Shown: positions 3,612 through 64,000 of the stretch, piece after piece
Layout of the letters: each line of letters starts with the position of its first letter
Numbering within the stretch: position 1 is the first letter of the stretch
NCBI RefSeq assembly: GCF_009765985.1
Contig: NZ_LMUM01000011.1
Span: forward strand, 62,001-126,000
Direction: 5' to 3'
Source of the DNA: Acidobacterium sp. S8
GTDB lineage: Bacteria > Acidobacteriota > Terriglobia > Terriglobales > Acidobacteriaceae
DNA length: 64,000 nt
Notes under the pieces: model-generated
Told to the model about the DNA's origin: nothing
What the model saw: only the letters and a program-made list of their open reading frames with translations
Database searches by the model: none
Translations under genes and position numbers: made by a program

Positions 3612-3719
3612 AACTTCTCCAGCTGAAGGAATGGATGAAAGGTATCAGAGCTAAATTTTGACCTGCGACTGTTGCAGGAGCGTTACAGAAAAGATGCGTA
3701 CAACGGCTCTTAGGATGTT

Positions 3720-3743
3720 GTATCATACCCCCCTAGGATATGC
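3720..3743. promoter_or_regulatory. Predicted CsoR/RcnR/FrmR-type operator
   Basis: Six consecutive C residues (3728-3733) are flanked by AT-rich half sites, TATCATA (3721-3727) and TAGGATA (3734-3740), which are inverted repeats with one mismatch. Known sites of RcnR and FrmR have this plan: a G/C tract bounded by inverted AT-rich arms. It lies just upstream of the ribosome site of the regulator gene at 3756 and upstream of the divergent porin. Confidence 0.75.
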
Positions 3744-3755
3744 TGAGGAAAAATC

Positions 3756-4037
3756 ATGTGCGCTGTTGACCGGGTGGATCGGGAGAAGCAGAAGCTTGTA
3801 GCCCGCATAAGACGCATTCGTGGACAAGTCGATGCGATCGAGCGATCGCTGACAAACGGTGATGATTGCGCGGATGTACTGATGCTGCTGGCGAATGTGC
3901 GCGGCGGTATCAACAGCCTGATGGGAGAGGTGATGGAGGACCATATTCGCCTGCACATGCTGACGGAAAAGAGTGCGCATCCGCCTACGGAGCTGGCCGA
4001 GGATCTGATCGATCTGATCCGGGCCTATTTGAAGTGA
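3756..4037 (+). CDS. Metal- or formaldehyde-sensing repressor, CsoR/RcnR/FrmR family
   Basis: This 93-aa all-helical regulator has the family signature RIRRIRGQVDAIERSL and VRGGINSLM. The candidate ligand residues are C38, H63 and H67. By position these match the Cys-His-His set of RcnR better than the Cys-His-Cys of copper-sensing CsoR. RcnR's N-terminal His3 is not present; a Cys lies at position 2 instead. The C-terminus (IRAYLK) is FrmR-like. GAGG stands seven bases before the ATG. Its probable operator overlaps its own promoter and faces the divergent porin. No metal exporter or formaldehyde dehydrogenase is adjacent, so the effector cannot be assigned from context. Confidence 0.9.
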   Translation: MCAVDRVDREKQKLVARIRRIRGQVDAIERSLTNGDDCADVLMLLANVRGGINSLMGEVMEDHIRLHMLTEKSAHPPTELAEDLIDLIRAYLK

Positions 4038-4087
4038 ACATAATCACGCGGATTTTTCCAGATTGCGGTCGAGTTGAAGCGGACTTG

Positions 4088-5254
4088 TTAATGGGTACGC
4101 TTAAGCGGGGTGATGGCTTGAGGTATCCGATAAATTGTGATGCTGCCAGCCTCGTTGTCTGCCGTGATTAGATCGTTTTTGCCCTTTCCAATCAGATCGG
4201 CGATGACCACCGACCCCCAGCCGCTCGGTGCCGCCTGAGAAGTCTCGGCAAATTGTCCGCGATCCTGATTCTCAAATGTGAGCAAATTCCTGCTGGATGC
4301 GCATAGAACCGCGATATCGTGAAGTCCATTTCCTTCGAGATCGCCAGCGGCGACGCTGGCTGCGCCTCGGCAACCTGTCAGGTGGAGAGGTGAGGTCGGC
4401 ATGGGCCGAAAACCGCCCTTTCCATCGCCGAGCAGGACCGTGACGGCGATCTGCGCATCGTTGGCCACGTCGCGGTCATAGGGAATGACGATGAGATCGG
4501 GATTGCCGTCATGGTTGATGTCGTCGATAGTGACCTGCCAGGGCTTTGCTCCTGCGGGGAAGGGCGAACCCGCGGCAGGATGAAGTCCCCCTTTTCCGTC
4601 TCCCAAAAGAATGGAAACGGTATCGTCGTCCAGATTCGTGGTGACGACGTCGGGATTGCCGTCATGATTAAAGTCGGCGGAACGTAAACGCTCATAAGGC
4701 CGCCGGCCGACAGCAAAGAATTTACCGGGCGTGCGAAGGCTCCCGCTGCCATCGCCAAGAAGAAGCTCGATCTGATTATCCGCCCAACTATCAGTGACGA
4801 CATCGGGAATGCCGTCTCCATTGAAGTCAGCCACCGCGATCCCGTGCGGGTGCGGATTGGAGTGGACATTGACCGGCGAACCTGAAGCGGGATGAAATGC
4901 ACCCTTGCCGTCACCCAGGAGAATCGTTAGATATGGCGATTGCGTGTTGACGATGACCAGATCCGGATTCCCGTCTCGATTCATATCGGCGATCACAATG
5001 TCGTTTGGCAGATGACCGGCTTGAAACGGCGAGCCGGGGGCGGGGTGGAAACTATCATTTCCGTCGTTAAGAAGCACGGTCACGGTGCCGTCTTCATTCC
5101 CAACGACGATATCTGGTCTGCCGTCGTGATTTAAGTCTCCTATAGCAATGCACTTTGGGCTTTTGCCTGTCGGGTAGGAGAACACGCGTCGCGGAACAGG
5201 GGACGCAGCGGAATAGAGAAAGAACGCGAAGAGCAGGAAACGTGGCAGGATCAT
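4088..5254 (-). CDS. FG-GAP/VCBS repeat protein
   Basis: A signal peptide (MILPRFLLFAFFLYSAASP) is followed by about seven repeats containing D-x-N-x-D-G-x-P-D calcium-binding loops, for example DLNHDGRPDIVVGNEDG. The repeats alternate with VLLGDGKGGF segments. Such repeats form an integrin-like beta-propeller, and the protein is expected in the periplasm or outside the cell. No catalytic domain is visible. A strong GGGAGGAG ribosome site lies seven bases before the ATG. The role is unknown; ligand binding or surface adhesion is usual for the fold. Confidence 0.85.
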   Translation of the reverse strand: MILPRFLLFAFFLYSAASPVPRRVFSYPTGKSPKCIAIGDLNHDGRPDIVVGNEDGTVTVLLNDGNDSFHPAPGSPFQAGHLPNDIVIADMNRDGNPDLVIVNTQSPYLTILLGDGKGAFHPASGSPVNVHSNPHPHGIAVADFNGDGIPDVVTDSWADNQIELLLGDGSGSLRTPGKFFAVGRRPYERLRSADFNHDGNPDVVTTNLDDDTVSILLGDGKGGLHPAAGSPFPAGAKPWQVTIDDINHDGNPDLIVIPYDRDVANDAQIAVTVLLGDGKGGFRPMPTSPLHLTGCRGAASVAAGDLEGNGLHDIAVLCASSRNLLTFENQDRGQFAETSQAAPSGWGSVVIADLIGKGKNDLITADNEAGSITIYRIPQAITPLKRTH

Positions 5255-5334: not shown

Positions 5335-7935
5335 CTAGTGACGCAGGGATTCTATGGCCTGCGTGAGCGTGACTGACAGGTTTTCCTGCTGCGTATCGCT
5401 CAGTTTGCGACCAGAGGATGTGAGGTAGAAAACGTCAATGGCAACCTCACCTTCGGTATCGATCAACGCAACTTCGATGTTGCACTGGGCTTCGGCGAAG
5501 GTACGGGCAAGCTCGCGCAAAAGACCGGGAGTATCCTGCGCGACGACTTGCACGAGCGTGCTGTGGGATGAAGACGTGTTGTCGAAAGCGATGCGTGTTT
5601 CCACATGCACTTTGGCATGATTGCGACGGTTGGCGTGGCTGCGGGCGCGCAGGAGCGACTCGATCGGAACATGTCGAGAAATGACATCGCGAATGTTCTT
5701 GAGGAAGCGATCAACTTCGGTGGGATTCAGCTCAAGAGTCTGAAACGGATCAGTGAACTGGAAGGTGTCGAGAATGAGGCCGGCGGCGTTTGAGAAAGCG
5801 TCGGCCTTGACGATGTTCATGCCCCAGGCGGAAAGAATTCCGGCCATATCGGCAAAGAGCATAGGACGATCCGCCGTGATGAGCGTGATCTCGCTCAGCT
5901 GGCGCACGGTGCGGAAGGCGAGCTGAGCAGGCTCGACGGAAAGATCGAGAGCCATCTTGAAGTGATTGCGAATCTGCTCGGGCAGCCGCGTCTGCAGGTA
6001 ACGTTGCGGCAGCCCTTCGAGGAAAGATTTCAGCTCTTCACTGCGGTCGGGCGTGAGAGCGACGATGCGGTTCAACAGACCTGTATCGGATTCAACGTGA
6101 TAACGCTCTTCATCAACGCTACGGTCGAGGAAGTTCGATGTTGCGATGTAAAGCTGCCAAAGGTTCTCAGCTTTCCACGGTGTAAGCGCCTCTGGTGCAA
6201 CCGCTTTGATATCGGCATACGTCAGCAGACAGAGCATCTTGAGCTGCGCGTGGCTGCCTACTTTTTCCCCGAAGGCGCGTATGCTTTCAGGATCAAAAAT
6301 ATCGCGACGCAGTGCAGCTGACATTTCCAGGTGATTGCGAATGATGCGGCGTACGGTCTCGCGCTCTTCGGGGTCGAATTCGAGCCGGGCAAAGAGGCTT
6401 TCCGCCAACTCGACGCTCTGCGCGCAGTGGTCTCCGGCGCGTCGCGCTTTACCCGTGTCATGCATGAGCAAAGCCAGCAGGAAGAGATCGAGACGGTCGA
6501 TCTCCGGCAGTAGTGTGGCGAAACGCTTCTCCCATTCCTGTGCCGGCTGGCGCAATGCGTGTACGTTGTCGATCACCAGAAAGGTGTGCTCGTCTACCGT
6601 GTAGCGATGATAAGAGTCGCGGATAACGAGTGCGTCGATGCCGTGGAATTCGGGAATGACGAGTTCGAGAACGCCTAAAGCATGCATGGTGCGCAGTGCA
6701 TGTGCGGCATGCGGACCGATAAGAATGTCGCGCAGGCAATTCCACAGGAACGGGCCTTCGGGCATTTGCACGGCGAGTACAGGCAGAGCTTCGGCGATGC
6801 GGTCTTCGGCGTTCTGGCTGAGCTTGTAGCCGTGGGCAGCGACCATGCCGAAGATTCGCAGGACGCTGTCGGCATCGCTGACGGTGGAGGATTCATCGAG
6901 ATCGAGGCGGCCCTGTTCCAGGAAAAAATCTGTACCGGGAACCGGCGTGCGCTTACGTCGAAACTGCTTATAAAACGAGCGGCGCGCAGGCGGCACATCG
7001 TCCATCAGCAGGGAAGTGCGGCGGAAGATGGTGCGTGCATGCCGGTAATAGGTACGCATCCAGTACGCGGGATCGGCTGAGCCGCGGGTCTCGAGGCCGA
7101 TGCTCTGCTCGGCGGCTTCATCCTGCGCATGCCAATCGAGGGTGTTGTCGTCGCGTCCGCAGCGGTAGTGGAGGAAACATCGTGCAGCGGCGAGAAAGTC
7201 GAATGCTGTTTCGAGGTCGTTATGAACGGTGAAGAAGGAATTGGTCGTGGTTTTTGGCCAGGTCTTCTGCGCCTGCAGAGAGAACAGCAGGTTGAGCCAC
7301 TGGGAGAGATGATAATCGCGCAGGCCGCCGGGACATTCCTTGATATTTGGTTCAAGGTGAAAAATGGTATTGCCATATTTTGAGTGCCGTGCACGCGCCA
7401 TTTCGGCCAGATTTTGCACAATCGTATTCCATTCGCGCAGGGCGAGTGCGGGAAGCAGCTCATTTTCCAGACGGCGGTAGAGCGCATAGTCGCCGCATAG
7501 ATAGCGGCGGTCGAGGAGCGAGACGATAAATTCGAGATTGTCAGGGTCTACGCGATCGATCTCTTTATAGATGCGGGTCGTCGGACTCGCGCGCAGACCG
7601 ATGTCCCACATGGATTGCGTGCAGGTGCGAATGAGGTCGTGACAATCCCGCTCTGCTCTCTCGGTGGCGCATACAAAAAGCACGTCGATGTCGGAGTGAG
7701 GAAAGAGCTCCTTGCGTCCGAAGCCTCCCGTCGCAATGAGAGCAATATTGGCCGCCTCCGATTGATCCTCCAGGAGCGCCGTCCACAACTGACGGAGAAT
7801 TTTATCGACCAGAGTGGAGCGGCGACGAATGGACGCTGAGCCGTCGCCGGAGCGCTCGAAGGTAAGGCGCAGGTCGGCTGATTCTTTTTGATACAGGTCC
7901 CGCATTCGCGGGAGAGATAGCGGCTCAGGCGTCAT
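5335..7935 (-). CDS. glnD: Bifunctional PII uridylyltransferase/uridylyl-removing enzyme GlnD
   Basis: At 866 aa this has the usual GlnD length and domain order. The nucleotidyltransferase comes first ([18 protein letters not shown], about 70-88, catalytic D82 and D84). A helical linker and an HD hydrolase domain follow ([11 protein letters not shown] about 442-452 and MHDTGK about 491-496). Two ACT domains end the protein (about 690-760 and 795-866). It uridylylates PII when glutamine is low and removes UMP when glutamine is high. It is the last gene of a leftward amt-glnB-glnD group; the distance from glnB is 84 bp, so it may also have its own promoter. Confidence 0.96.
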
Positions 7936-44075: not shown

Positions 44076-44630
44076 ATGAGCACCAATCAGCAGGTGTGGG
44101 GGTTTCCAGATTCGGCTGCCGCAGTCGGCAAAGATATCGACAACTGGTACGCGGTGATGACGCGAGCGCGACACGAGAAGGTCGTGGCCCAACGGCTAGA
44201 AGAGAAGGGTGTACATACTTTTTTGCCGACCGTCACTGAAGTGCATCGATGGCGCGACCGCAAGAAGGCCGTAGAGCTTCCCTTATTCAGTTGTTATCTA
44301 TTTGTAAAGCTGATGCCCAGCAATGAAGAGCGCCAACGGGTGCTGCGGGTGGACAGCGTATTAGGTTTTGTGGGGAATGCAATCGGAGGATCGCCGATTC
44401 CAGACGAACAGATTGACGCTGTTCGGATCGTGGTGAATGGGCAGGTACCTTATTCAGATCATCCTTATCTCGAAGTGGGCCAGCGTGTGCGTATCCACAG
44501 CGGCGCCCTGAATGGCATGGAAGGCATACTCGTATCGCGCAAGGGTGATCGCAAGCTGATCATTTCTGTGGATGCGATGCAGAGATCCCTCGCCGTCCAA
44601 ATCGACGGTTACGACGTCGAACCAATCTAA
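44076..44630 (+). CDS. UpxY-type transcription antiterminator (NusG paralogue)
   Basis: This 184-aa protein has an NGN domain (NWYAVMTRARHEKVVAQRLEEKGVHTFLPT, LFSCYLFVKL) and a C-terminal KOW domain (VGQRVRIHSGALNGMEGILVSRKG). Specialised NusG paralogues (UpxY, RfaH, LoaP) load on RNA polymerase at one long operon and let it read through. Here it is the first gene of the exopolysaccharide locus, so it likely aids transcription of the following 20 kb. AGAGAGGG lies eight bases before the ATG. Confidence 0.9.
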   Translation: MSTNQQVWGFPDSAAAVGKDIDNWYAVMTRARHEKVVAQRLEEKGVHTFLPTVTEVHRWRDRKKAVELPLFSCYLFVKLMPSNEERQRVLRVDSVLGFVGNAIGGSPIPDEQIDAVRIVVNGQVPYSDHPYLEVGQRVRIHSGALNGMEGILVSRKGDRKLIISVDAMQRSLAVQIDGYDVEPI

Positions 44631-44676
44631 AACTTCTTTCAATCCATTGATTACTTCTAACAGTCAGGGCCTATTT

Positions 44677-46179
44677 GTGAAAAAAACTATCGACGCAGCA
44701 CGGCTTCTTGTCGTGAGTCACGACTCGGCCGTTCTACGTCCACTCGGGCTTCTCGGCGAATCGAACTGCTGGCATTTTGAAAATGCCGCGAGCGTATGGG
44801 AAGCGATGGAGCGGGTGCAATCGGCAACAGCGCCCGACCTGCTCCTGCTTGATTTGCCTCCCGGGGATGAAGACGGACTGCATATTCTGCGCTGGCTGCG
44901 ACGGCTACGGCCGGAACTGCCGGTGATCCTGATCGGCCATCCGGAAGACGACAGCCGGAAACAGGAAGCCATCCGTATGGGCGCATGGGACTATCTGATC
45001 CGCCCTTTCGATGAACGACAGTTGGAAATGACGATCTGGCACCATCTTTCTCAATCGCGTGAAGATTTCGAGCCCGATATCACTAGCGATGATGTAGAAC
45101 TCGTGGGCGAAGACAATTTCTTTATCGGAATCAGCCCGGTGATGCGGAAGCTGCGCGCGCAGGCCGCTCTGCTGGCTGGTGCGAACGTGCCGGTTTTGAT
45201 TCTGGGTGAGAGCGGCAGCGGCAAAGAGACGACAGGCCGGCTGATCCATAAACTATCAGTACGGTCCGCCTTCGAATTTGCAAAGGTAAATTGCGCAGCA
45301 TTACCCGGCGAACTTCTGGAGCGCGAGCTTTTCGGATATCAGCGGGACGGCGTAAGCAAGACGGGCAAGCTCGAGCTTTGCGAAAAGGGCGCGATTCTGC
45401 TGAACGAAATTACAGAAATGCCGATGGAGTTGCAGGCAAACCTGTTACAGGTGCTGACGCAGAAGCGGTTTACGCGGCCGGGAAGCCACACGCAAATCGA
45501 CGTGGATATTCGCATCATGGCCTCAAGCACGGTAAATATCGAACGCGCCATTTCCGAAAAGAGACTCCGTGAGGATCTTTACTACAGACTGAGCGCTTAC
45601 ACGATTCATGTGCCGCCGCTGCGCGACCGGCGCGACGAGCTTACGCTGTTGTCTCGCCATTTTATGCATCATCTTGCCCGGCACTACGGAGTGGCTCCGC
45701 GGGATTTTGCGCCAGCCATTCTTGATGCCTGCCAGACCTATGCATGGCCCGGGAATCTCCGCGAACTGGAGAATTTCGTCAAGCGCTATATGGTTGCGGG
45801 CGATACGGAACTGGCGTTTGAAAATCTTCATGCCGATGGCAATGGAAAGAGCCACAACGGTACAAATGGCCACACGAATTCGTCGTCGCGGGATGCACAC
45901 CTCCGCGAGAACGGAAACGGTTCGGATTCATTGAAGTCTCTGGTTCAGGGCATCAAGCTCGAGGCCGAGAAAAACGCAATCGCCGCAGCGCTGGAGAAGA
46001 CGGGATGGAACCGAAAGGCCGCCGCCCGGCTACTCAAGGTTAGCTATCGGACACTCTTGTACAAGATCGAGCAGTACCAGATGCGAGCAACCGACTCCTC
46101 TACACTTCTGGGCCGTCCAGGGCTCCGGAGCAGCAGGGGGATCGGGCTTGGATTCCGCGGCGATGACAGGAAGGAATAA
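44677..46179 (+). CDS. Degenerate sigma-54-type regulator (REC-AAA+-Fis) of the exopolysaccharide locus
   Basis: Domain order is that of NtrC: receiver (D59 in LLLLDLPPGDEDG), AAA+ (Walker A GESGSGKE, 177-184) and a Fis-type helix-turn-helix (NRKAAARLLKVSYRTLLYKIEQYQM). Several key parts are altered. The receiver has SHD in place of the acidic pair and Arg in place of the conserved lysine (YLIRPF). The GAFTGA loop is missing (LFGYQRDGVSKTGKLEL). Walker B reads ILLNE, with Asn243 replacing Asp. It therefore probably cannot activate sigma-54 in the usual way. The start is GTG at 44677, seven bases after AGGG. A Gly/Asn/Ser/His-rich linker precedes the helix-turn-helix. Confidence 0.85.
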   Translation: MKKTIDAARLLVVSHDSAVLRPLGLLGESNCWHFENAASVWEAMERVQSATAPDLLLLDLPPGDEDGLHILRWLRRLRPELPVILIGHPEDDSRKQEAIRMGAWDYLIRPFDERQLEMTIWHHLSQSREDFEPDITSDDVELVGEDNFFIGISPVMRKLRAQAALLAGANVPVLILGESGSGKETTGRLIHKLSVRSAFEFAKVNCAALPGELLERELFGYQRDGVSKTGKLELCEKGAILLNEITEMPMELQANLLQVLTQKRFTRPGSHTQIDVDIRIMASSTVNIERAISEKRLREDLYYRLSAYTIHVPPLRDRRDELTLLSRHFMHHLARHYGVAPRDFAPAILDACQTYAWPGNLRELENFVKRYMVAGDTELAFENLHADGNGKSHNGTNGHTNSSSRDAHLRENGNGSDSLKSLVQGIKLEAEKNAIAAALEKTGWNRKAAARLLKVSYRTLLYKIEQYQMRATDSSTLLGRPGLRSSRGIGLGFRGDDRKE

Positions 46180-54275: not shown

Positions 54276-54932
54276 ATGCAGACTGTAGTGGTAATGGGTA
54301 AAGGCGACCTGGCGATCAAGGTAGCCAACTGGTTCCTGCAATCAGAGAAATACAAACTGACCGCCGTTGTTCCGGTTATGCCAGAGCCTAAGTGGACGCA
54401 GTCACTGGCTGAGTGGAGCAGAGCAAACGGCATCCCGGTCATCGAATCCGGCCATTACAAAGACCTGCCGCAACTCGGAGCCGGTGAGCCGATTGACCTT
54501 GCGGTATCAGTCTTCTATGACAAGATCATCAAAGCGTGGTTCATCGACCGGTGTAAGAGAATCATCAATCTTCACAATGGACCGCTTCCTAAGTACCGCG
54601 GTGTCTCTCCTATCAATTGGGCGCTGAAGAACGAAGAGCTCGAGCATGGTGTGACCATCCACGAGATCACGCCGGGGATCGATGACGGACCAATCATTGG
54701 TCAGGTGAAGTACTCCATTTACCCGGCCTTCGATGAGGTCATTGATGTATACCGGCGCGCTCTGGAATACGCATGGACGCTGTTCCAGCAAACCGCTCCT
54801 ATGCTCGACAAGATTGAAGCGCGTGAGCAAAAGCATGAGGAAGCGAGTTATTACAGCAAGCTGGATAATCCTCTACTGGGTGAACGCAGCGAATTCACCC
54901 GCCAGGCAGAACCGGTACACGCTGCGCACTGA
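54276..54932 (+). CDS. Formyltransferase-fold protein, probable sugar N-formyltransferase
   Basis: This 218-aa protein has the formyltransferase motif IINLHNGPLPKYRGVSPINWAL and the later GVTIHEITPGIDDGPIIGQ. The Asn-His pair and Asp of the catalytic triad are visible. Length and position between a sugar oxidoreductase and a sugar aminotransferase argue for N-formylation of an amino sugar from formyl-tetrahydrofolate rather than action on Met-tRNA. AAAGGAG lies before the ATG. Confidence 0.88.
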   Translation: MQTVVVMGKGDLAIKVANWFLQSEKYKLTAVVPVMPEPKWTQSLAEWSRANGIPVIESGHYKDLPQLGAGEPIDLAVSVFYDKIIKAWFIDRCKRIINLHNGPLPKYRGVSPINWALKNEELEHGVTIHEITPGIDDGPIIGQVKYSIYPAFDEVIDVYRRALEYAWTLFQQTAPMLDKIEAREQKHEEASYYSKLDNPLLGERSEFTRQAEPVHAAH

Positions 54933-54991
54933 TGAAACGCGGAGAAGTCTGAAATATAAAAACGGTTTCGATTTTTCACCATGGAGCAAAA

Positions 54992-56281
54992 ATGAATAAT
55001 GCAACGCAAATCCCGTTCCTTGATCTGATCACGCCGCATGCTGAACTCGAGGGCGAGTTGGTCGAAGTGTTCAAAGGTGTACTGAAGAACGCAGGTTTCA
55101 TCGGCGGTCCCTTGGTCGAAGAATTTGAAAATACATTTGCTGCTTTCTGTGATGCGCGCCACTCCGTTGCCGTAAGCAGCGGAACCGATGCACTGCGCTT
55201 TGCGCTCATGGCGTGTGGAGTTGAGAATGGCGATGTGGTCGTAACCGTTCCGCATACTTTCATCGCAACCACGGAGGCCATCTCGCAGGCAGGTGCTCTT
55301 CCGGAATTCGTGGATATCGACGAACGCACCTACAATATGTCGCCGGAGATGTTGCGCCGTTATCTGGATCAGCAGTGTGTGCGTGATAGCGCCGGCAAGC
55401 TGATCAGCGTGAGAAGCGGGCGTCCGGTCACTGCAATTGTTCCGGTCCACATCTACGGTCAGATGGCTGACATGGATGCGATCCTTCAACTGGCTGAGGA
55501 ATACGGCCTGGTTGTAGTGGAAGATGCGTGCCAGGCTCATGGCGCCGAATACTTCTCTGAGAAGTTCAATTGCTGGATGAAGGCCGGCTCGGTTGGCCAG
55601 GCCGCGGCATTCAGTTTTTATCCGGGAAAGAATCTCGGAGCGTGTGGTGAAGCTGGTGCAGTCACGACGAATGACGATGAAGTAGCGGCTACGATCAAGA
55701 TGTTGCGCGATCACGGCCAGGCCAGAAAGTACCACCATAATGTGGAAGGCTATAACGGGCGCCTGGATGCATTACAGGCTGGATTGCTACAGGCGAAGCT
55801 GGCTCATCTGGCGAAATGGAATGCACTCCGGCGGGATCGCGCTGCGGAATACAACCGTATCCTCGGGGATATCGAGGCCATCACTCTTCCCTATGAGCCG
55901 TCATGGTCACACGCTGTATATCACCTGTACGTGATTCGTACTTCCGATCGTGATGCCCTGGTGAACCACATGAATCTTGCAGGTATCGGCACGGGGATTC
56001 ACTATCCGATTCCTCTGCATATGCAGAAGGCCTACGTATCGCTTGGATACAGCCCGGAAGACTTTCCCGTTGCGAGAATGGTAGCCGCCGAAATCGCTTC
56101 TCTTCCGATGTTCCCTCAGCTCACCGCCGAGCAACAGGCACGTGTAGCAGACGAGCTCGTGGCATTTGCCGCTAAATCCGAATCAGCTTTGGTGACGAAA
56201 GCAGGCGATGCTGGCGAGATTGATCCTGCTCTGTTGCAAACGGTTGGCGGCAATGGACGCGGTGCTTCGCGGAGCCGGTAA
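54992..56281 (+). CDS. DegT/DnrJ/EryC1/StrS sugar aminotransferase
   Basis: This 429-aa PLP enzyme has VSSGTDALRFALMACGV, EDACQAHGAEY and the Schiff-base lysine K213 in FSFYPGKNLGACGEAGAV. The late motif GIHYPIPLHMQKAY is typical of sugar aminotransferases. It would aminate the keto sugar made by the Gfo/Idh/MocA enzyme, giving the amine that the formyltransferase or the AAC(3)-fold enzyme could acylate. The last 50 residues are an extra, low-complexity tail. Confidence 0.93.
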   Translation: MNNATQIPFLDLITPHAELEGELVEVFKGVLKNAGFIGGPLVEEFENTFAAFCDARHSVAVSSGTDALRFALMACGVENGDVVVTVPHTFIATTEAISQAGALPEFVDIDERTYNMSPEMLRRYLDQQCVRDSAGKLISVRSGRPVTAIVPVHIYGQMADMDAILQLAEEYGLVVVEDACQAHGAEYFSEKFNCWMKAGSVGQAAAFSFYPGKNLGACGEAGAVTTNDDEVAATIKMLRDHGQARKYHHNVEGYNGRLDALQAGLLQAKLAHLAKWNALRRDRAAEYNRILGDIEAITLPYEPSWSHAVYHLYVIRTSDRDALVNHMNLAGIGTGIHYPIPLHMQKAYVSLGYSPEDFPVARMVAAEIASLPMFPQLTAEQQARVADELVAFAAKSESALVTKAGDAGEIDPALLQTVGGNGRGASRSR

Positions 56282-56348
56282 TCGCTTCGTGTCGTGTGTG
56301 TTCAACAACTTCAGCAACTAACCTCCCTCTACTGTGACCTCTGAAATC

Positions 56349-57290
56349 ATGGCAGCAACTTCAAACTATGTATTGATTACACCTGCGCGGAATGAAGCTC
56401 AATTCATCGGATTGACGCTTCAGTCCATGGTGGAGCAAACGCATCGCCCATTGAAATGGGTGATAGTCAGCGATGGTTCCACCGATGGTACGGACGAGAT
56501 CGTTCGGAAATACGTTGCAGACTATTCGTGGATCGAGCTGCTGCGCATGCCAGACCGCAAAGAGAGACACTTTGCGGGTAAGGCACATGCCTTCAACGCC
56601 GGATACGAGCGAGTGAAAGACCTCGATTTCGATGTAATCGGCAACCTGGATGCGGACGTATCTTTCGATGCGGACCACTTTGAATCACTGATTGCGCGGT
56701 TCGCTGAGTACCCGCAGGTCGGCGTTCTCGGTGCTCCATTCCGGGAAGGAAATTATCAGTACGATTACCGATTTACCAGTGTCGATAGTGTTTGGGGCGG
56801 TTGCCAGCTCTTCCGCCGCGAATGTTTCGAGATGATCGGCGGGTACGCTCCGCTCGAGAGTGGTGGAGTGGATTTGGTTGCCGTGGTGACCGCTCGGATG
56901 AAGGGATGGCAGAGCCGAACATACTTCGGCAAAGTCTGCATACATCATCGCCAGATGAACAGCGCTATGAACAAGGGTCTGAAGCTCAAGTTCAAGTGGG
57001 GAGAGAAAGATTACCGCCTTGGCAGTCATCCGGTATGGCATATCTTCCGGTGCGCCTATCAGATGAAGTATTCGCCGTACATCGTCGGTGGTGCTTTGAT
57101 GCTGGCTGGATACTACTACGCTGCAATCACTCGTTGTCCACGGTCGGTTTCTGCGGAGTTCATCGATTTTCGCGGGAAAGAACAGATGAATCGCTTGAAG
57201 AGATTTATTGCTCGTAAACCCCAGATTGCGGAAGGTGCAGTTTCACCGCAGATGGCGGCTCGTCCAAGCTCGAGCGGAGGTGGCCTGTGA
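56349..57290 (+). CDS. Glycosyltransferase family 2
   Basis: The GT-A fold shows as LITPARNEAQFIGLTLQSMVEQ and WVIVSDGSTDGTDEI. The metal-binding DxD-like site is in IGNLDADVSF, and the acceptor region is in GGCQLFRRECFEMIGGYAPLESGG. It adds one sugar to the lipid-linked repeat unit at the cytoplasmic face. The ATG at 56349 is preferred; a GTG at 56334 is in frame. The end overlaps the next gene by four bases (GTGA). Confidence 0.9.
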   Translation: MAATSNYVLITPARNEAQFIGLTLQSMVEQTHRPLKWVIVSDGSTDGTDEIVRKYVADYSWIELLRMPDRKERHFAGKAHAFNAGYERVKDLDFDVIGNLDADVSFDADHFESLIARFAEYPQVGVLGAPFREGNYQYDYRFTSVDSVWGGCQLFRRECFEMIGGYAPLESGGVDLVAVVTARMKGWQSRTYFGKVCIHHRQMNSAMNKGLKLKFKWGEKDYRLGSHPVWHIFRCAYQMKYSPYIVGGALMLAGYYYAAITRCPRSVSAEFIDFRGKEQMNRLKRFIARKPQIAEGAVSPQMAARPSSSGGGL

Positions 57291-58216
57291 GATTGATCCA
57301 TCAAGGCGTGAACAGTGCACGCGCGGGCGTTCGCTCAGCTCTTCGCAGTGTATTGAGCCAGGAGCGGCGCACGGAACTGAAGCGGCTCCAGGGATTGGCG
57401 CGGAAACGTTGCGCACCGGTTCTGTCGCTAGTTCATGGGACCTTTACTACTGAGGAATTGATTGCGGATTTGTCGCGTCGACTGCCGGCCGATTTCGAAA
57501 TCCTCATGGTTCATAGTTCGTTCGATGGATTTCTTCCCATGTATAAGGGCACGGCGAAAGAACTTCTCGCGGCCCTGATCGATTTCTGCGGACCTAACCG
57601 AACGCTGGTCATGCCTTCATTTGTTATGGGTGGCCGCACCTATGATTCGTCGGCTTATTTTCGTACGCACCCATTTGATGTCCGGCGCACTCCTTCGGAA
57701 GTCGGGTTGATTGCAGAAATCTTTCGCAGGACGCCTAACGTATTACGGAGCCTGCACCCGACTTGTAGTGTCTGCGCTCTCGGGCCACTGGCGAAGGAGA
57801 TAACCACCGGTCACCACCTATCAGAAACGGGCCTCAGCCCGGATAGCCCCTTCGGAGTGATGACACGTGGCCGCACGGCGATTCTCGGCTTGGGTGTGGA
57901 ATACTATCGCTGTCTAACGCATGCCCACACGGCCGGCCACCAGATGGGCGAAGCCTTCCCCATCAAATTTTCCAATCCGTTTACGCAGGTCACTCTTATC
58001 GACTACGACGGCAGCCGTTTTGAATACAGATTGGGACTGCCTGACCGGACCAAAAAATTAGATCTGACGATTATCTGGTCCTTGCTCTCTGCAAATGAGT
58101 TGATGGAATGGCGCTATCACGGAATTCCCATGTTCCTGATTCCGAGCGCGGGAGTTTTGACAGATCGTTTGATTGAAGCTGCACACCGCGGAATCACGAT
58201 TTACGGAAAAGCCTAG
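57287..58216 (+). CDS. AAC(3)-fold acyltransferase
   Basis: This 309-aa protein matches the aminoglycoside 3-N-acetyltransferase fold (LMVHSSFDGFLPMYKGTAKELLAALIDFCGPNRTLVMPSF; RRTPSEVGLIAEIFRRTPNVLRSLHPTCSVCALG). The catalytic region is LTHAHTAGHQMGEAF. In a polysaccharide locus it more likely acylates an amino sugar than confers antibiotic resistance. The acyl donor could be acetyl-CoA or, given the carrier protein encoded 1.8 kb downstream, an acyl-carrier thioester. Confidence 0.85.
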   Translation: MRLIHQGVNSARAGVRSALRSVLSQERRTELKRLQGLARKRCAPVLSLVHGTFTTEELIADLSRRLPADFEILMVHSSFDGFLPMYKGTAKELLAALIDFCGPNRTLVMPSFVMGGRTYDSSAYFRTHPFDVRRTPSEVGLIAEIFRRTPNVLRSLHPTCSVCALGPLAKEITTGHHLSETGLSPDSPFGVMTRGRTAILGLGVEYYRCLTHAHTAGHQMGEAFPIKFSNPFTQVTLIDYDGSRFEYRLGLPDRTKKLDLTIIWSLLSANELMEWRYHGIPMFLIPSAGVLTDRLIEAAHRGITIYGKA

Positions 58217-58250
58217 ACTGAGGCATTTCAGGCGAACGGAAGAAACTGAT

Positions 58251-59951
58251 ATGAGCGAGATGAAAGATAAGCCGAACGCACGGCGCGTGCTGCTGACCGG
58301 CGATACAACGCTGGAGCCACTCGGTCGGCTGCTTGAGCGCAACCAGGAAGCGCCGGCTGTGGTCACTTCGGCAGCACCATACGGGCAGGTGTTTCAGATT
58401 CTGCTGGATGCGAATCATTCCGCTTGGACGTTTCAGCCTAACGTGCTTGTTGTATGGACTGCGGCGCACATTACGCTTCCTTCAGTCGGAAAGCTGATTC
58501 GCTTCGAAGGCGAATCGCCTGCTGCGGCTTACGAAGCCGCCATTGCAGAGGCCGAACAATTCGCCGATTCCGTCCTTCGTGCAGCGGATCGCGTTGATAT
58601 GGTACTGGTGCCTACGTGGGTAATCCCCACTTACGAGCGGTGGGTGCAAACGCTCGCATGGCGGCAGGGAATTGGCGTTGCGAATCTCATTGCCAGGCTG
58701 AACCTCCTACTCGCAGAGAAATTTGCCGCGCACCACAACATCGTTCTGCTCGACGCCGCATATTGGCAGGCAAGCCTGACCCGTTCGGCATACGATCCGC
58801 GCATGTATGCCTTCGCCAAGATACTGTACTCACAGCAGCTCTTTGAAAAAGCTGCAGCAGAGATGAAGGCGATCCTGAGAGGATCCTTGGGGCAGACGAA
58901 AAAGGTAGTCGTTTGCGATCTCGACAATACACTGTGGGGCGGCGTAGTGGGAGACGACGGCTCGCACAACATCAAGCTTGGCGCGCCAGATCCGGTAGGC
59001 GAATGCTTTTCTGCCTTTCAGCTGGTACTTAAGGGGCTCCGTTCTCGTGGCATTATGCTCGCGATCTCGAGCAAAAACGACGAAGCGTATGCACTGTCAG
59101 TAATTGAAGAGCATCCGGCGATGGTTCTGCGCAAGAGCGACTTTGTTGCGTGGCGAATCAACTGGAGAGATAAAGCGGAGAACTTGCTAAGCCTTGCCGA
59201 AGAATTGAATCTGGGTCTTGACTCGTTTGTGTTCCTCGATGACAGCCCGCAGGAACGGGAGCAGATAAGGCAGGTTCTTCCGCAGGTATACACTCCGGAT
59301 TTACCATCATCTCCCGCCGATTACGCATCGTTTCTTTCGACACTCAGTTGCTTTGAAACTTCGAGTATCGGTAAGGAAGATTTAGAGCGAACAACCATGT
59401 ATCGGGCCGAGCGCGGCCGCAAGGAAGCTCTCGATCTTAGCGGTGATGTAGAGAATTGGTTGAATTCGCTGCAGATTAAAGTGCAGGCGGCTCCGTTATG
59501 TCGGGATAGCCTGCCGCGGGCGGCACAACTGCTGAATAAGACGAACCAGTTCAATCTAAGCCTTCGTCGTTTGGACGAGAAGAGCCTCTGGGATTGGGCA
59601 GAACAACCAAGCAACGCCGCGTATACCTTCGATGTCTCCGATCGATTCGGCAACTTCGGTCTTACCGGCCTGGCCAGTCTTTCACTCACTGGGTCCGAAG
59701 CAAGAATCGTTGACTTTGTGATGAGCTGCCGAGTGATGGGCAAGAAGGTAGAAGAGGCGCTGCTTGGGTACACGCTGGCGCAGGCGAAAGCTGCGGGAGC
59801 GGAGCGCATTATGGCACCGCCGGTTGATGGCCCACGAAATGGCCCGGCCAAAGATTTCTTTGCAAGCAAGTTTTCCAGTGTCGAAAGCGGTGCGATCGAT
59901 CCGGGCCGAGTTGTCATTCCACCCCAAATCAACCTGATGGAGGAACGCTGA
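58251..59951 (+). CDS. FkbH-like HAD-IIIC protein
   Basis: This 566-aa protein has an N-terminal SGNH-like region, a HAD domain with the D-x-D-x-T nucleophile (D223, D225, T227 in VVCDLDNTLWGGVVGDDG) and a C-terminal GNAT-like region (about 430-560). FkbH proteins take 1,3-bisphosphoglycerate, remove phosphate and load a glyceryl group on an acyl carrier protein. A carrier protein gene follows 22 bases downstream. The start is the ATG at 58251 (GGAAG upstream); an in-frame ATG at 58173 lies inside the previous gene. Confidence 0.92.
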   Translation: MSEMKDKPNARRVLLTGDTTLEPLGRLLERNQEAPAVVTSAAPYGQVFQILLDANHSAWTFQPNVLVVWTAAHITLPSVGKLIRFEGESPAAAYEAAIAEAEQFADSVLRAADRVDMVLVPTWVIPTYERWVQTLAWRQGIGVANLIARLNLLLAEKFAAHHNIVLLDAAYWQASLTRSAYDPRMYAFAKILYSQQLFEKAAAEMKAILRGSLGQTKKVVVCDLDNTLWGGVVGDDGSHNIKLGAPDPVGECFSAFQLVLKGLRSRGIMLAISSKNDEAYALSVIEEHPAMVLRKSDFVAWRINWRDKAENLLSLAEELNLGLDSFVFLDDSPQEREQIRQVLPQVYTPDLPSSPADYASFLSTLSCFETSSIGKEDLERTTMYRAERGRKEALDLSGDVENWLNSLQIKVQAAPLCRDSLPRAAQLLNKTNQFNLSLRRLDEKSLWDWAEQPSNAAYTFDVSDRFGNFGLTGLASLSLTGSEARIVDFVMSCRVMGKKVEEALLGYTLAQAKAAGAERIMAPPVDGPRNGPAKDFFASKFSSVESGAIDPGRVVIPPQINLMEER

Positions 59952-60221: not shown

Positions 60222-61127
60222 ATGACCTATCAACAGCCACATATCTCCGTCTGCATCTGCACCTATAAGCGTCCGGAGTTGCTTAGGCGCGCGCTCGAAG
60301 CTGCCTGCATGCAACGCAAAGATGATCTGTTCACCTTCACTATCGTGGTCGTTGATAACGATAAAAATGAGAGTGGACGAGAGATTGCTGCGCAAATGGC
60401 ATTAGAATGCCGTGTGCCTATCAACTATGTTGTTGAAGCTCGGCAAGGTATCGCTCTAGCACGCAATAAGGCTGTCGAGAGCGCCACGGGGAATTTCGTA
60501 GCTTTCATGGATGATGATGAGCTTCCGATTCAGGAGTGGCTGCTGACATTATTCAAAACGCTTCAGGGCTGCGAAGCCGATGGTGTTCTGGGTCCTGTGG
60601 ATCCTCATTTCGACGAAGATACCCCACAATGGATTATTGAGGGCGGGTTCTATTCGCGGCCAAGCCATCCAACCGGAATGAAACTTGCGTGGAGAAATTG
60701 CCGGACCGGCAATGTGCTGTTAAAACGCGAACTCTTCGCCACTGACGAGCAGCCATTTAATCCGGAGTGCTTGTCAGGCGAAGACCAGGATTTTTTCCGA
60801 AGAAAGATTGAAAAAGGGCATCAGTTCATATGGTGTCATGAAGCCACCATTTATGAAGTGGTGCCTGCTGTTCGCTGGAAACGCAGCTTTCTCATTCGCC
60901 GGGCGTTGTTCCGTGGCATCTTTGCACAACGGAACCATGGGCTCCAGCCGTTGCGGCTGCTGCAAGCGGTTGTGTCCGCGCCGGTATATGCATTAGCTTT
61001 GCCGATTGCTTTCATTTTCGGACAGGCAAAGTTCATGACATGCGTTTTCAAGTTGTCATATCACATGGGCCGATTGTTCGCTGTCGTCGGCCTGAATCCA
61101 ATTCGACAGCGCTACGTTACGGAATAG
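60222..61127 (+). CDS. Glycosyltransferase family 2
   Basis: This 301-aa protein has the GT-A start ISVCICTYKRPELLRRALEAA, an Asp-rich metal site in VAFMDDDELPIQEW, and the late acceptor/catalytic signature CLSGEDQDFFRRKIEKG. One hydrophobic segment near the C-terminus (YALALPIAFIFGQAKFMTC) may anchor it. It adds a sugar to the growing unit. The tRNA-like RNA begins 20 bases after its stop. Confidence 0.9.
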   Translation: MTYQQPHISVCICTYKRPELLRRALEAACMQRKDDLFTFTIVVVDNDKNESGREIAAQMALECRVPINYVVEARQGIALARNKAVESATGNFVAFMDDDELPIQEWLLTLFKTLQGCEADGVLGPVDPHFDEDTPQWIIEGGFYSRPSHPTGMKLAWRNCRTGNVLLKRELFATDEQPFNPECLSGEDQDFFRRKIEKGHQFIWCHEATIYEVVPAVRWKRSFLIRRALFRGIFAQRNHGLQPLRLLQAVVSAPVYALALPIAFIFGQAKFMTCVFKLSYHMGRLFAVVGLNPIRQRYVTE

Positions 61128-61147: not shown

Positions 61148-61235
61148 GGAGAGATCGCCGTTGGTAAGGCAGCGGCCAGCTTGCTGGCTGCGATGGGAAA
61201 CCATCCGGAGGTTCGAATCCTACCTCTCTCCGCCA
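61148..61235 (+). tRNA. tRNA-Ser-like RNA without an anticodon
   Basis: An 88-nt cloverleaf-like RNA. Acceptor stem: GGAGAGA 61148-61154 with TCTCTCC 61225-61231, then G73 (61232) and encoded CCA (61233-61235). D arm: GCC 61157-61159 with GGC 61168-61170, loop containing GG. Variable arm: GATGG-GAAA-CCATC (61192-61205). T arm: 61207-61211 with 61219-61223, one G-A mismatch, T-loop TTCGAAT, and one extra C (61224). Acceptor sequence, G73 and long variable arm are serine-type. Where an anticodon arm should be, 61172-61179 pairs with 61184-61191 over eight bp (one G-U), closed by CUUG. No seven-base anticodon loop can form. It lies inside an operon and cannot read codons. Confidence 0.85.
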
Positions 61236-61277: not shown

Positions 61278-62174
61278 ATGAAAGTGAGCAATAAGGAAAT
61301 CAGAGTAAGCGGGCGTTGGCTGAAGATCGCTCGCCTGGATGCTGACAAGTATCAGTTCCTCGAAGATGCTGGATCATTTATTGAGGAGCTGCGTAAGGCC
61401 AGAGTGAAAGCTGACATTTTTACCTTCATGCAGGGCTTACCCTCGACAGAGCCCAAATACAAATTTCCAATGGAATGGGACAATTTTGCTGCGATTCCTA
61501 TTTCCACATTCGAAAACTGGTGGATGAAGCAGATTGGATTCAAGGCGAGAAACAAAGCCAAGCAGGCCGAGAAAAAGGGTGTTGTGATTCGTGAAGTGCC
61601 GTTCAATGACGAGCTTGTTCATGGGATATGGGAAATCTACAATGAATCGCCGATTCGCCAAGGCCGACGGTTTGCACATTACGGCAAAGACTTTGCCACC
61701 GTCTATAAGGAAGAAGCTACTTATCTTGATAGCAGTGTCTTCATCGGTGCGTACCTCGAAGAGAAACTTATCGGCTTTGTGAAGCTGGTGAGCGATGAGA
61801 GCCGCACTCAGGCCGGGTTGATGAACATTGTCTCTCTCATCCAGCAGCGGGACAAGGCTCCCACGAATGCGTTGGTGGCGCGCGCTGTTCGCTCCTGCGC
61901 AGAGCGTGGAATTCCTTTTCTGGTGTATTCGAACTTCGACTACGGCAAAAAGCAGCAGGACAGCCTCAGAGATTTCAAAGAACGCAACGCTTTCCAGCGC
62001 ATGGATGTGCCACGCTACTATGTTCCGCTAACGCAGCTTGGCGCTGCTGCTGTCCGTCTCGGATTGCAGCACCGGCTCACAGACTATATTCCGGAATCGG
62101 TTGCGTCGCGTCTGCGTGAATATCGCGAAGCATGGTACAACCGCAGGTTCGAAACAGCCACGGAGGCTTCGTAG
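61278..62174 (+). CDS. Fem/GNAT-like acyltransferase, possibly aminoacyl-tRNA dependent
   Basis: This 298-aa protein resembles the second half of Fem-type and related GNAT-fold transferases. The basic segment FKARNKAKQAEKKGVVIREV is followed by an acceptor-region stretch IWEIYNESPIRQGRRFAHYG. The core is SSVFIGAYLEEKLIGFVKLVSDE, and LVARAVRSCAERGIPFLVYSNF packs near the end. Fem-type proteins move amino acids from aminoacyl-tRNA to cell-wall precursors. The adjacent anticodon-less tRNA-like RNA makes such a donor plausible here, but a plain acyl-CoA acetyltransferase cannot be excluded. The ATG at 61278 is used because the upstream part of the frame lies within the RNA gene. Confidence 0.7.
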   Translation: MKVSNKEIRVSGRWLKIARLDADKYQFLEDAGSFIEELRKARVKADIFTFMQGLPSTEPKYKFPMEWDNFAAIPISTFENWWMKQIGFKARNKAKQAEKKGVVIREVPFNDELVHGIWEIYNESPIRQGRRFAHYGKDFATVYKEEATYLDSSVFIGAYLEEKLIGFVKLVSDESRTQAGLMNIVSLIQQRDKAPTNALVARAVRSCAERGIPFLVYSNFDYGKKQQDSLRDFKERNAFQRMDVPRYYVPLTQLGAAAVRLGLQHRLTDYIPESVASRLREYREAWYNRRFETATEAS

Positions 62175-62182
62175 AGCTGATC

Positions 62183-64000
62183 ATGCCTGGAATCGTTGGA
62201 ATTATTACAAAAAAGTCGCGTGCTTGGGCGGAGCCGCAGCTGCAGAAGATGGTAGCTACCATGCGTCACGAATCCTTTTATACAGAAGGAACCTGGGCGA
62301 ATGAAGCCGCGGGAATTTATATTGGCTGGGTTGCGCGCAAGAATTCTTTTGCAGATGTAATGCCGATCTACAATGAGCAGAACGATAAGATTCTCTTCTT
62401 TTCCGGGGAGGAATATCCCGATCCCGATGTTTATGCGCAGCTGAAGCAGCGCGGTCACTCATTCGAGACCAGAAGCGCAGCATATCTCGTTCATCTTGCG
62501 GAAGAAGATTTGTCGTTTCCTCGCAGCCTGAACGGTAAGTTTCAGGGACTGCTCATCGATTCTACCTCTGGAACCGCCACGCTCTTTAACGATCGCTTCG
62601 GCATGCATCGGTTGTACTATCATGAGTCACCGGAAGCCTTCTATTTCGCCGCCGAAGCGAAATCCATTCTTGCTGTGCGCCGGGAACTGCGCACGCCAAA
62701 TCAGCAAAGTCTTGGTGAGTTCGTAGCTTGTGGTTGTGTGCTTGAAGACCGCACACTCTTCCAGGACATTCATGTGCTGCCAACGGCTTCAGCATGGGTT
62801 TTCCGAAACGGCGCTCTACAGAACAAAGGGAAATACTTCGAGCCGTCAGAATGGGAAAACCAAGGGCCTCTTGAACCGGAAGCCTACTACAGGCAGCTGC
62901 AGGAAGTGTTCTCGCGCAATTTGCCGCGCTACTTTGGCGGCGACGAGAAGGTCGGGGTTTCGCTGACAGGCGGTCTCGACACACGCATGATTATGGCGTG
63001 GTGGAAAGCTGCTCCGGAATCGCTGCCTACATATACGTTTGGCGGCCCATACCGTGAATGCCAGGACGTGATCATTGCCCGAAAAGTGGCGGAAGCATGC
63101 GGGCAGCCTTATCAGGTGATACCGCTGGGCAGTGAGTTTCTCTCGCGGTTTGCACACTATGCTGAGCGCGCCGTCTACCTGGCTGATGGATGCGTGACTG
63201 TACAGCGGTCTGCTGATCTCTATGCGAACGAGCTAGCCGCACAAATTGCCCCCATAAGAATGACTGGCAACTATGGCAGCGAAATCCTGCGGCGGCTGCG
63301 AGCATTCAAGCCAACAGCGCCAGCGAGTGGACTCTTTCAGCCGGAATTTCTTTCGCATGTCGACCGCGCGAAGGATACCTTCCATCGGCTCTCTCAAGGA
63401 CACGCAGTTACCTTCACTGCCTTTCGTCAGGCTCCGTGGTATCAGTATGGATTGCTTTCGCTTGAGCAAACGCAGCTTTCGCTGAGGTCGCCGTTCCTCG
63501 ATAACGATCTTGTTCAGACAGCGTTCAGGGCGCCTAAATCGGAGATCGTAAAGAGCGATATCTTCGAAGACAACAGCGACTGCGGACGATTGATCGCTGA
63601 CGGAAGTGCGGCTTTGCACCGCATTCCGACAGATCGCGGGCTTGGCGTTGGTGGCGGCGTATTATCGCGCATGTCGCGAGGCGTGCTAGAGTTCACCTTT
63701 AAAGCGGAATACGCTTATGACTATGGGATGCCGCAGTGGATGGCTCGCATCGATCATGCGCTGTCGCGTCTGCACCTGGAGCATCTCTTCCTGGGACGTC
63801 ATAAGTTCTGCCACTTTCGCGTGTGGTATCGGGATGCTCTCTCCTCCTATGTTAAGGAGATGCTCTTAGATTCGCGCACACTGTCGCGGCCATATGTTCA
63901 GCGCAAGACGGTGGAGGCGATGGTGAGCGGCCACCTCAAGGGAAATCGCAATTACACGACAGAGATTCATAGGTTACTTACCCTTGAACTTCAGCATCGG
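62183..64000 (+). CDS. Asparagine synthase-like ligase, truncated by the window edge
   Basis: The frame is open for 606 codons to the last base, so the C-terminus is missing. The N-terminal part has the glutaminase fold (MPGIVGIITKK, FNDRFGMHRLYY), but residue 2 is Pro instead of the catalytic Cys. Glutamine hydrolysis is therefore not expected. The synthetase part has the pyrophosphate loop in GVSLTGGLDTRMIMAWW and helices typical of AsnB homologues in polysaccharide loci. By family it would activate a carboxylate with ATP and form an amide, either with free ammonia or with another amine. It starts eight bases after the Fem/GNAT-like gene, so the two are cotranscribed. Confidence 0.85.
   Translation, partial: MPGIVGIITKKSRAWAEPQLQKMVATMRHESFYTEGTWANEAAGIYIGWVARKNSFADVMPIYNEQNDKILFFSGEEYPDPDVYAQLKQRGHSFETRSAAYLVHLAEEDLSFPRSLNGKFQGLLIDSTSGTATLFNDRFGMHRLYYHESPEAFYFAAEAKSILAVRRELRTPNQQSLGEFVACGCVLEDRTLFQDIHVLPTASAWVFRNGALQNKGKYFEPSEWENQGPLEPEAYYRQLQEVFSRNLPRYFGGDEKVGVSLTGGLDTRMIMAWWKAAPESLPTYTFGGPYRECQDVIIARKVAEACGQPYQVIPLGSEFLSRFAHYAERAVYLADGCVTVQRSADLYANELAAQIAPIRMTGNYGSEILRRLRAFKPTAPASGLFQPEFLSHVDRAKDTFHRLSQGHAVTFTAFRQAPWYQYGLLSLEQTQLSLRSPFLDNDLVQTAFRAPKSEIVKSDIFEDNSDCGRLIADGSAALHRIPTDRGLGVGGGVLSRMSRGVLEFTFKAEYAYDYGMPQWMARIDHALSRLHLEHLFLGRHKFCHFRVWYRDALSSYVKEMLLDSRTLSRPYVQRKTVEAMVSGHLKGNRNYTTEIHRLLTLELQHR

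Follow-up and report, generated by a model that had tools for sequence, protein, structure and literature searches.

The 64,000-nucleotide stretch of acidobacterial DNA analyzed here, referred to below as the window, raises the question of what an RNA with the fold of a serine tRNA and no anticodon is doing inside a polysaccharide gene cluster. We favor the reading, with a probability of roughly 70%, that this RNA is charged by the cell's SerRS, does not decode, and acts as a private seryl donor for the product of the adjacent gene, a protein with a predicted FemX fold that would transfer serine onto an exopolysaccharide precursor. The RNA probably feeds serine to polysaccharide decoration and not to protein synthesis.

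From its sequence and by RNA folding, the element at nucleotides 61148 through 61235 of the + strand is a whole gene for an 88-nucleotide serine-type tRNA fold with a long variable arm, G73, and an encoded CCA. The 5′ strand of its 7-bp acceptor stem, GGAGAGA (61148–61154), is the same as in the genome's own tRNA-Ser(GCT) and tRNA-Ser(GGA), and the 3′ strand, followed by G73 and CCA (61232–61235), occupies 61225–61235. Folding and alignment place a D arm of 3 bp, C11-G24 included, with a GTTGGTAA loop containing GG at 61157–61170, and a long variable arm of 5 bp with a GAAA loop at 61192–61205. Folding and comparison define the T arm (61207–61224), which has the loop TTCGAAT and one extra nucleotide on its 3′ side, the bulge being best placed at A61222. 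They also define the replacement of the anticodon arm, a 20-nucleotide segment (61172–61191) that forms an 8-bp stem with a CUUG tetraloop (61180–61183) closed by G-C; a 7-nucleotide loop with a serine anticodon is absent. A preliminary description of this locus had listed the same parts (acceptor stem, G73-CCA, D arm, 5-bp variable arm with GAAA, T-loop, and 8-bp stem with CUUG), and RNA folding bears it out.

The computed fold energy of the RNA is −42.8 kcal/mol (z = −3.65 relative to 200 shuffles, one of which was equally good). However, the fold alone is weak evidence because RNAfold also over-pairs the anticodon arm of the genome's canonical tRNA-Ser, yielding 3-nucleotide loops in two of them (L127 and L128), and the case therefore rests on comparison. 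Accordingly, the preliminary description was right to call the arm a designed stem and not decay insofar as relatives carry compensatory changes (see below), but full pairing, on which it had relied, is no proof on its own. When run on the 64-kb window, ARAGORN reported no tRNA and no tmRNA with a tag peptide, and thus a standard tRNA finder can overlook such genes. Rfam gave no match at the gathering level for 61148–61235; below threshold, a tRNA-Sec (RF01852) match at 61148–61231 reached 27.5 bits versus a cut-off of 47. The tRNA-Sec and tmRNA identities were dropped on the basis of this score and of the ARAGORN result.

Relatives of the RNA were sought by way of its neighbor. The protein encoded by the next gene was compared with 150 genomes of the same family, 18 of which gave a match, and reading the flanks of these matches added three anticodon-free RNAs of Ser type to that of the window, each located upstream of the enzyme gene. 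A genome collection was scanned with the protein alignment, and the best 80 of 145 loci were taken. A covariance model (R1) built from eight RNAs, including the window RNA (which scores 99.7 bits with it), was run over 99 sources and matched 10 sequences outside the training set at E ≤ 2e-18, each adjoining a relative of the same enzyme. In a plasmid collection, 30 records carry partial matches only, which span at most 52% of the query among the best 20 listed, and none covers 80%.

After identical RNAs were merged (23 rows becoming 22 distinct), and with the RNA of one additional genome (L251 of G512) counted outside the fold table of 22, there are 23 distinct members, window included. All have a replaced anticodon arm, and none of the 23 folds with a 7-nucleotide anticodon loop. 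The arm is 18, 20, 22, or 24 nucleotides long (2n+4) in 22 members and 19 in the RNA from G512, compared with 17 in tRNA. The minimum-energy loops are 4 nucleotides in 15 of the 22, 8 in six, 6 in one, and 7 in none. The 8-nucleotide loops arise where an A-C mismatch opens the stem, and each of the six has G and not U33 as its second loop base. Across the 22 members, loop sequences vary freely (CUUG, UUCG, CUUA, UUGA, AACU, GCAA, CAAA, and CUAA, among others).

Covariation was assessed in an alignment of 19 sequences (without L144–L146 and L251) that was fitted to the model, and so leans towards the structure of that model, and that contains near-copies (L058, L093). In this alignment, 97.9% of cells pair and both sides change at 11 of 28 pairs; for the replaced arm, the corresponding values are 94.7% and 4 of 8. 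All five pairing and covariation measures lie above all six slid controls and were reached by 0 of 500 shuffles. Each of the five helices, among them the odd arm, shows compensatory changes, and pseudogene decay was dropped as an explanation on account of them. The covariance-model search that the preliminary description had proposed thus returned homologues with a conserved fold and compensatory changes in the odd stem, and the outcome it named as refuting (homologues with a normal 7-nucleotide loop or an unconserved fold) did not occur. Judged by comparison of sequences, the element at 61148–61235 is a conserved anticodon-free serine-type tRNA and not a product of decay, because 23 members share the odd arm and the 19 aligned members show compensatory changes.

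Several members deviate individually. L047, L063, and L077 do not form a cloverleaf at minimum energy, and in L051 and the RNA of G512 the D arm lengthens by taking bases of the odd arm. L117 scores 44 bits with R1 versus 46.3 for a canonical tRNA-Ser and has no encoded CCA, and it is counted as a member for its arm only, in which the alignment shows 7 bp and a GCAA loop. L117 comes from a Verrucomicrobia metagenome bin and L077 from a Nitrospira bin, and either could be mis-assigned. The longest arms, in L142 (G245) and L143 (G224), have 10 bp with CAAA or CUAA loops, and these RNAs lie 8 to 9 kb from the enzyme gene. In L063, a second odd tRNA-like RNA (4722–4807; 31.8 bits with R1) begins about 890 nucleotides after the good one (3746–3836), with the same gene downstream.

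A feature on which the preliminary description was silent is common to all 23 members, namely that 13 and not 12 nucleotides separate the T loop from G73. The four ordinary tRNA-Ser of the genome (GGA, GCT, TGA, and CGA) have 12, as read from their sequences. A mechanical scan that demanded 12 came up empty next to the gene at 75 of 80 loci, some of which do carry a Ser-type RNA. With the bulge at the fourth T-stem position, 22 sequences give 96 Watson-Crick cells of 110, compared with 77 or 88 for two other placements; an extra base at the foot of the T stem (77 of 110) was dropped for this reason. According to PMC4052509 and PMC9976931, EF-Tu reads T-stem pairs 49-65 and 51-63. Because the T stem carries an extra base, we infer a second barrier to translation, wherein the bulged stem probably weakens EF-Tu binding.

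The preliminary description had held that SerRS needs no anticodon, and a review concurs, stating that serine identity is independent of the anticodon (PMC9976931). A table in this review lists G73, C72, G2-C71, R4-Y69, C11-G24, G30-C40, and a large variable region as the bacterial serine identity elements. G73, C72, G2-C71, R4-Y69, C11-G24, and the large variable region are all present in the RNA; for G30-C40, the rebuilt arm offers no clear equivalent. The acceptor stem has 7 bp in 22 of 22 scored members (one with a single mismatch), and the T stem has five pairs plus the extra nucleotide. The genome encodes one SerRS above the family cut-off, has one weak partial match to SerRS, and carries at least four ordinary tRNA-Ser. 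Charging would be possible without an anticodon because the long variable arm, G73, and the acceptor stem need none.

The preliminary description was silent on which enzyme would use the serine, and a candidate is encoded next to the RNA. The adjacent gene (61278–62174, + strand) begins 43 nucleotides after the RNA and encodes a 298-amino acid protein, which a structure model predicts to be a double-GNAT aminoacyl-tRNA-dependent transferase of the FemX/FemA/MprF fold and which we propose uses the RNA. At E 0.01, Pfam and NCBIfam yield no family for the window protein, not even Pfam FemAB (PF02388), and a sequence search of solved structures gave no FemX-type match. Among 20 aligned members, six match FemAB weakly (best E 0.0014) and six match Acetyltransf_6 (best 1.1e-6). 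Among solved structures, those closest to the structure model (pLDDT 90.7, from 51 sequences) belong to enzymes that depend on aminoacyl-tRNA, namely Sba18 (Foldseek 1.8e-11), Sbb17 (2.2e-11), FemX, MprF, and FemA; below the top four Foldseek rows, GNAT proteins of unknown function or acetyl-CoA type are among the matches. GNAT folds serve acetyl-CoA enzymes as well. By VIA-align, Staphylococcus aureus FemX gives Z 19.4 over 248 residues at 3.4 Å (model 1–265), Sba18 Z 19.2, FemA Z 17.6 (model 1–262), and the best MprF Z 16.0, whereas acetyl-CoA-type GNATs reach Z ≤ 15.8, mostly over one domain. Identity in the structural matches is about 8 to 14%. The model therefore points to a fold seen in enzymes that use aminoacyl-tRNA as their amino-acid source.

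The surrounding genes on the same strand, identified by family search, are of polysaccharide type. A family 2 glycosyltransferase gene (60222–61127) lies just upstream of the RNA, and the gene for an asparagine-synthase-like amidotransferase (62183–64000) lies just downstream of the enzyme gene and runs off the window. Further upstream (54276–59951) are genes for a formyltransferase-like protein, a DegT aminotransferase, a glycosyltransferase, an AAC(3)-like acyltransferase, and an FkbH-like protein. For the FkbH-like and AAC(3)-like genes (57287–59951), just 1 of the 19 loci with an adjacent RNA contains a relative, the window itself counted, and these genes therefore stand outside the system. 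An amino sugar made by the DegT enzyme would be a plausible acceptor of the amino acid. At the start of the cluster (44076–46179) are NusG-like and sigma-54-regulator-like genes, named by eye from the ORF list; antitermination specific to the operon is a possibility.

Nineteen distinct loci have the RNA and the enzyme gene close together, and in every one the RNA precedes the gene on its own strand, at distances of 31 to 1165 nucleotides. Three more genomes carry it on the contig of the gene, 8 to 10 kb upstream. Of 299 genomes sampled from the class and searched with cut-offs of E ≤ 1e-12 for the RNA and E ≤ 1e-40 for the protein (the stricter filters of large samples lose weak matches), seven carry the RNA and 42 the enzyme, the seven being a subset of the 42. 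A sample from the family comprised 398 genomes, of which 15 carry the RNA, 14 of them with the enzyme. When the two samples are joined (three RNA genomes are common to both), 18 of 19 RNA-bearing genomes also have the enzyme. Of the loci from these later whole-genome searches that were compared, 18 of 19 carry an already counted RNA, and therefore the genome samples and the named contigs overlap and are not independent. In a phylum sample of 396 genomes, the RNA was found only in the genome of the window, and the RNA is therefore rare outside the class.

The sole exception among the 19 is G512, in which no enzyme was found at E ≤ 1e-30. Its RNA (L251, from about 1500), with a 19-nucleotide arm that by eye forms 7 bp and a 5-nucleotide loop, directly follows a DegT gene and has Gfo/Idh and glycosylphosphotransferase genes resembling those of the window nearby, and the contig ends about 3 kb away. 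The dependence does not run in the other direction: 35 of the 42 enzyme genomes of the class sample are without the RNA at E ≤ 1e-12, and on the Ser side of the enzyme tree (described below) 58 of 81 enzymes are without a nearby tRNA-like gene. The enzyme can therefore do without the RNA, which is an accessory to it and not a requirement.

Relatives of the enzyme also adjoin tRNA-like genes of other types. Eighteen Thr-type elements, all on the strand of the enzyme, are present in loci L038, L039, L040, L041, L042, L044, L047, L111, L119 (two), L212–L215, L218, and L220–L222. Fifteen lie 11 to 230 nucleotides downstream of the gene, two overlap the matched end, and one is 395 nucleotides past a gene fragment. 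They keep G35 U36 and the listed acceptor pairs; position 34 varies among A, C, and T, and the G34 that the review lists occurs in none of them. G18 G19 are missing in 14 of the 18, and to judge by their sequences these tRNAs are probably likewise poor at translation. A glycine-type reading, suggested by U73, was dropped because the genome's own tRNA-Thr(TGT) has U73 too, and thus G35 U36 decide for threonine. Other types comprise three Asn-type, one Gly-type, and three Cys-type elements (one of the last on the opposite strand). The Gly-type tRNA (L098:4715–4790) has the anticodon TCC and C at position 33 and lies 211 nucleotides upstream of a Ser-side enzyme. L115, the second element in L216, and a damaged element in L223 were left untyped.

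When ARAGORN was run over the enzyme loci, of which only 84,497 of 1,416,460 bases lie within 300 nucleotides of a gene copy, it added to these types only three Ser-type RNAs, which it mislabelled. A broad pattern scan recovers 14 of 15 Thr loci and 17 of 19 Ser loci and has matches in 3 of 67 loci scored as having no such element ('none'), which we take for chance. The type of tRNA follows the enzyme tree (112 rows from 116 unique genes, with protein copies shorter than 250 amino acids and the gene of G368 left out), as there are 21 label changes versus a shuffled mean of 42.5. This tree was made by a quick method, with a midpoint that has a support of 89 and serves for drawing only. The adjacent Ser-type RNAs all fall on one side of the midpoint (81 rows), together with the Gly-type element and the untyped L115, and the Thr-, Asn-, and Cys-types fall on the other (31 rows).

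These observations bear on whether the RNA is a substrate at all. It could instead be a cis-acting regulatory or processing signal, either a cut site for RNase P or a sensor of charged serine that governs expression of the transferase, and its invariable place upstream on the same strand in the 19 loci fits such a role, as does the result of a weak scan of the window, which detected no terminator-like site in the stretch that separates the RNA from the gene. We nevertheless consider this unlikely, since the Thr-type elements are downstream of the gene, three Ser-type RNAs are 8 to 10 kb distant from it, and a plain cut site needs neither a long variable arm, G73, and CCA nor a type that tracks the enzyme tree. 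Somewhat more doubtful still is the idea that the charged RNA serves a different enzyme of the cluster, such as the asparagine-synthase-like protein, or that the serine is changed into a different amino acid before use. The asparagine-synthase-like gene indeed has a relative in 17 of 19 Ser loci, but also in 13 of 15 Thr loci and in 60 of 65 'none' loci, and the FemX-like gene is the neighbor whose position in the tree goes with the tRNA type. Moreover, enzymes of the asparagine-synthase-like family use ATP and glutamine, not aminoacyl-tRNA.

There is very little probability that the RNA is what is left of a former tRNA-Ser gene, preserved through chance or a mobile element. Its acceptor stem shared with two of the genome's tRNA-Ser, its patchy distribution, and the pseudogene-like allo-tRNA forms of an acidobacterium mentioned in PMC7609411 would suit such an origin, but the compensatory changes in five helices argue against a mere remnant unless the model-fitted alignment misled us, and so do the extra T-stem base in 23 of 23 members and the constant partner gene. 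Equally far-fetched is an odd translating tRNA whose arm opens and decodes, in ribosome rescue or recoding, for although the A-C mismatch gives an 8-nucleotide loop in 6 of 22 folds and one fold has a 6-nucleotide loop, no fold has a 7-nucleotide loop, loop sequences are free to vary, the six 8-nucleotide forms lack U33, and the window has no tmRNA.

Under the favored reading of a private seryl donor, the RNA would be transcribed with the polysaccharide operon and trimmed as tRNAs are. The only full SerRS of the genome would charge it by way of the long variable arm, G73, and the acceptor stem, all of which are in place. The RNA could not read codons, because comparison indicates that no anticodon loop remains, and its binding to EF-Tu would probably suffer from the bulge in the T stem. 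The linked enzyme with the predicted FemX fold would accept serine from the RNA and attach it to an amine, carried either by a sugar precursor or by a glycan of the exopolysaccharide. Relatives of the enzyme would follow the same logic with Thr-type and probably with Asn-, Gly-, and Cys-type tRNAs.

Both dedicated tRNAs for envelope chemistry and chargeable RNAs without an anticodon are already known. The former are exemplified by the non-proteinogenic tRNA-Gly of S. aureus, extra tRNAs that serve the transfer of peptides to the cell envelope with FemXAB, according to PMC4052509 and PMC9976931. As described there, these tRNAs are thought to avoid EF-Tu through changes in the T stem, where the RNA studied here has its extra base, and they have lost G18 G19 (PMC4052509), as have 14 of the 18 Thr-type elements. 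They differ in that they are Gly isoacceptors that serve peptidoglycan, whereas the present RNA is of serine type, belongs to a polysaccharide cluster, has no anticodon loop, and is encoded next to the proposed enzyme. The S. aureus tRNAs keep their anticodon loop.

The allo-tRNAs are likewise unusual serine-type tRNAs that occur in Acidobacteria, and they carry anticodons, as the preliminary description had noted and as the relevant part of PMC7609411 agrees. In that account they have 8/4 or 9/3 acceptor domains and diverse anticodons, some translate in Escherichia coli, and an enzyme partner does not figure; the RNA here has neither an 8/4 nor a 9/3 acceptor/T domain and no anticodon. Another similar RNA is tRNA-Sec, in that it is charged by SerRS, has a long variable arm, and avoids EF-Tu via acceptor and T-stem pairs, but it keeps its anticodon, and the window RNA falls well short of its Rfam cut-off (27.5 versus 47 bits). 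A chargeable tRNA-like RNA without an anticodon is also known in tmRNA, but it carries alanine, has a tag-coding part, and acts on the ribosome, and none was detected in the window. The predicted GNAT-type fold of the neighboring protein is shared by the transferases FemX/FemA, MprF, VlmA, DhpH, PacB, and Sba18/Sbb17 treated in PMC12945691, from which it differs by its low structural-match identity (about 8 to 14%) and by the lack of a family match. Neither 'dedicated tRNA' nor 'tRNA gene' is a term that PMC12945691 uses. In searches confined to openly licensed papers, we found no description of the window RNA, of an anticodon-free tRNA paired with its enzyme gene, or of such tRNA-transferase pairs.

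If the favored reading is true, this RNA would be a tRNA that has no decoding role and has kept the parts needed by a synthetase and a transferase, which would amount to a natural separation of the two halves of tRNA function. It would also suggest how aminoacyl-tRNA can be reserved for wall or polysaccharide chemistry as opposed to translation. Beyond the window, the odds seem to us slightly in favor of a wider arrangement in which polysaccharide clusters of soil bacteria hold pairs of a private tRNA and a FemX-type transferase, with the tRNA of the cluster setting the decorating amino acid (Ser-type without an anticodon, Thr-type whose anticodon keeps only the ThrRS element G35 U36, and Asn-, Gly-, and Cys-types elsewhere). 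In that event, tRNA genes would serve as amino-acid cartridges freed from decoding to differing degrees, and, if the readings hold, the amino-acid decorations of exopolysaccharides could be predicted from DNA alone.

Some loci hold more than one such element. In G224, two enzymes that come from opposite sides of the tree stand in tandem, with a Thr-type tRNA after the second and the anticodon-free Ser-type RNA 9 kb upstream. In L119, a near-identical pair of Thr-type tRNAs (5940–6015 and 6103–6178) stands in tandem after the enzyme gene. In L035, a degenerate Thr-like tRNA remnant, recognized by eye, is found just after position 7888, downstream of a Thr-side enzyme. In L047 (2336–4573), an intact enzyme gene and its anticodon-free RNA are followed by a fragment of a second enzyme gene (3691–4104) and a Thr-type tRNA with the altered T loop TTAAAAT; this second set is a decaying second pair.
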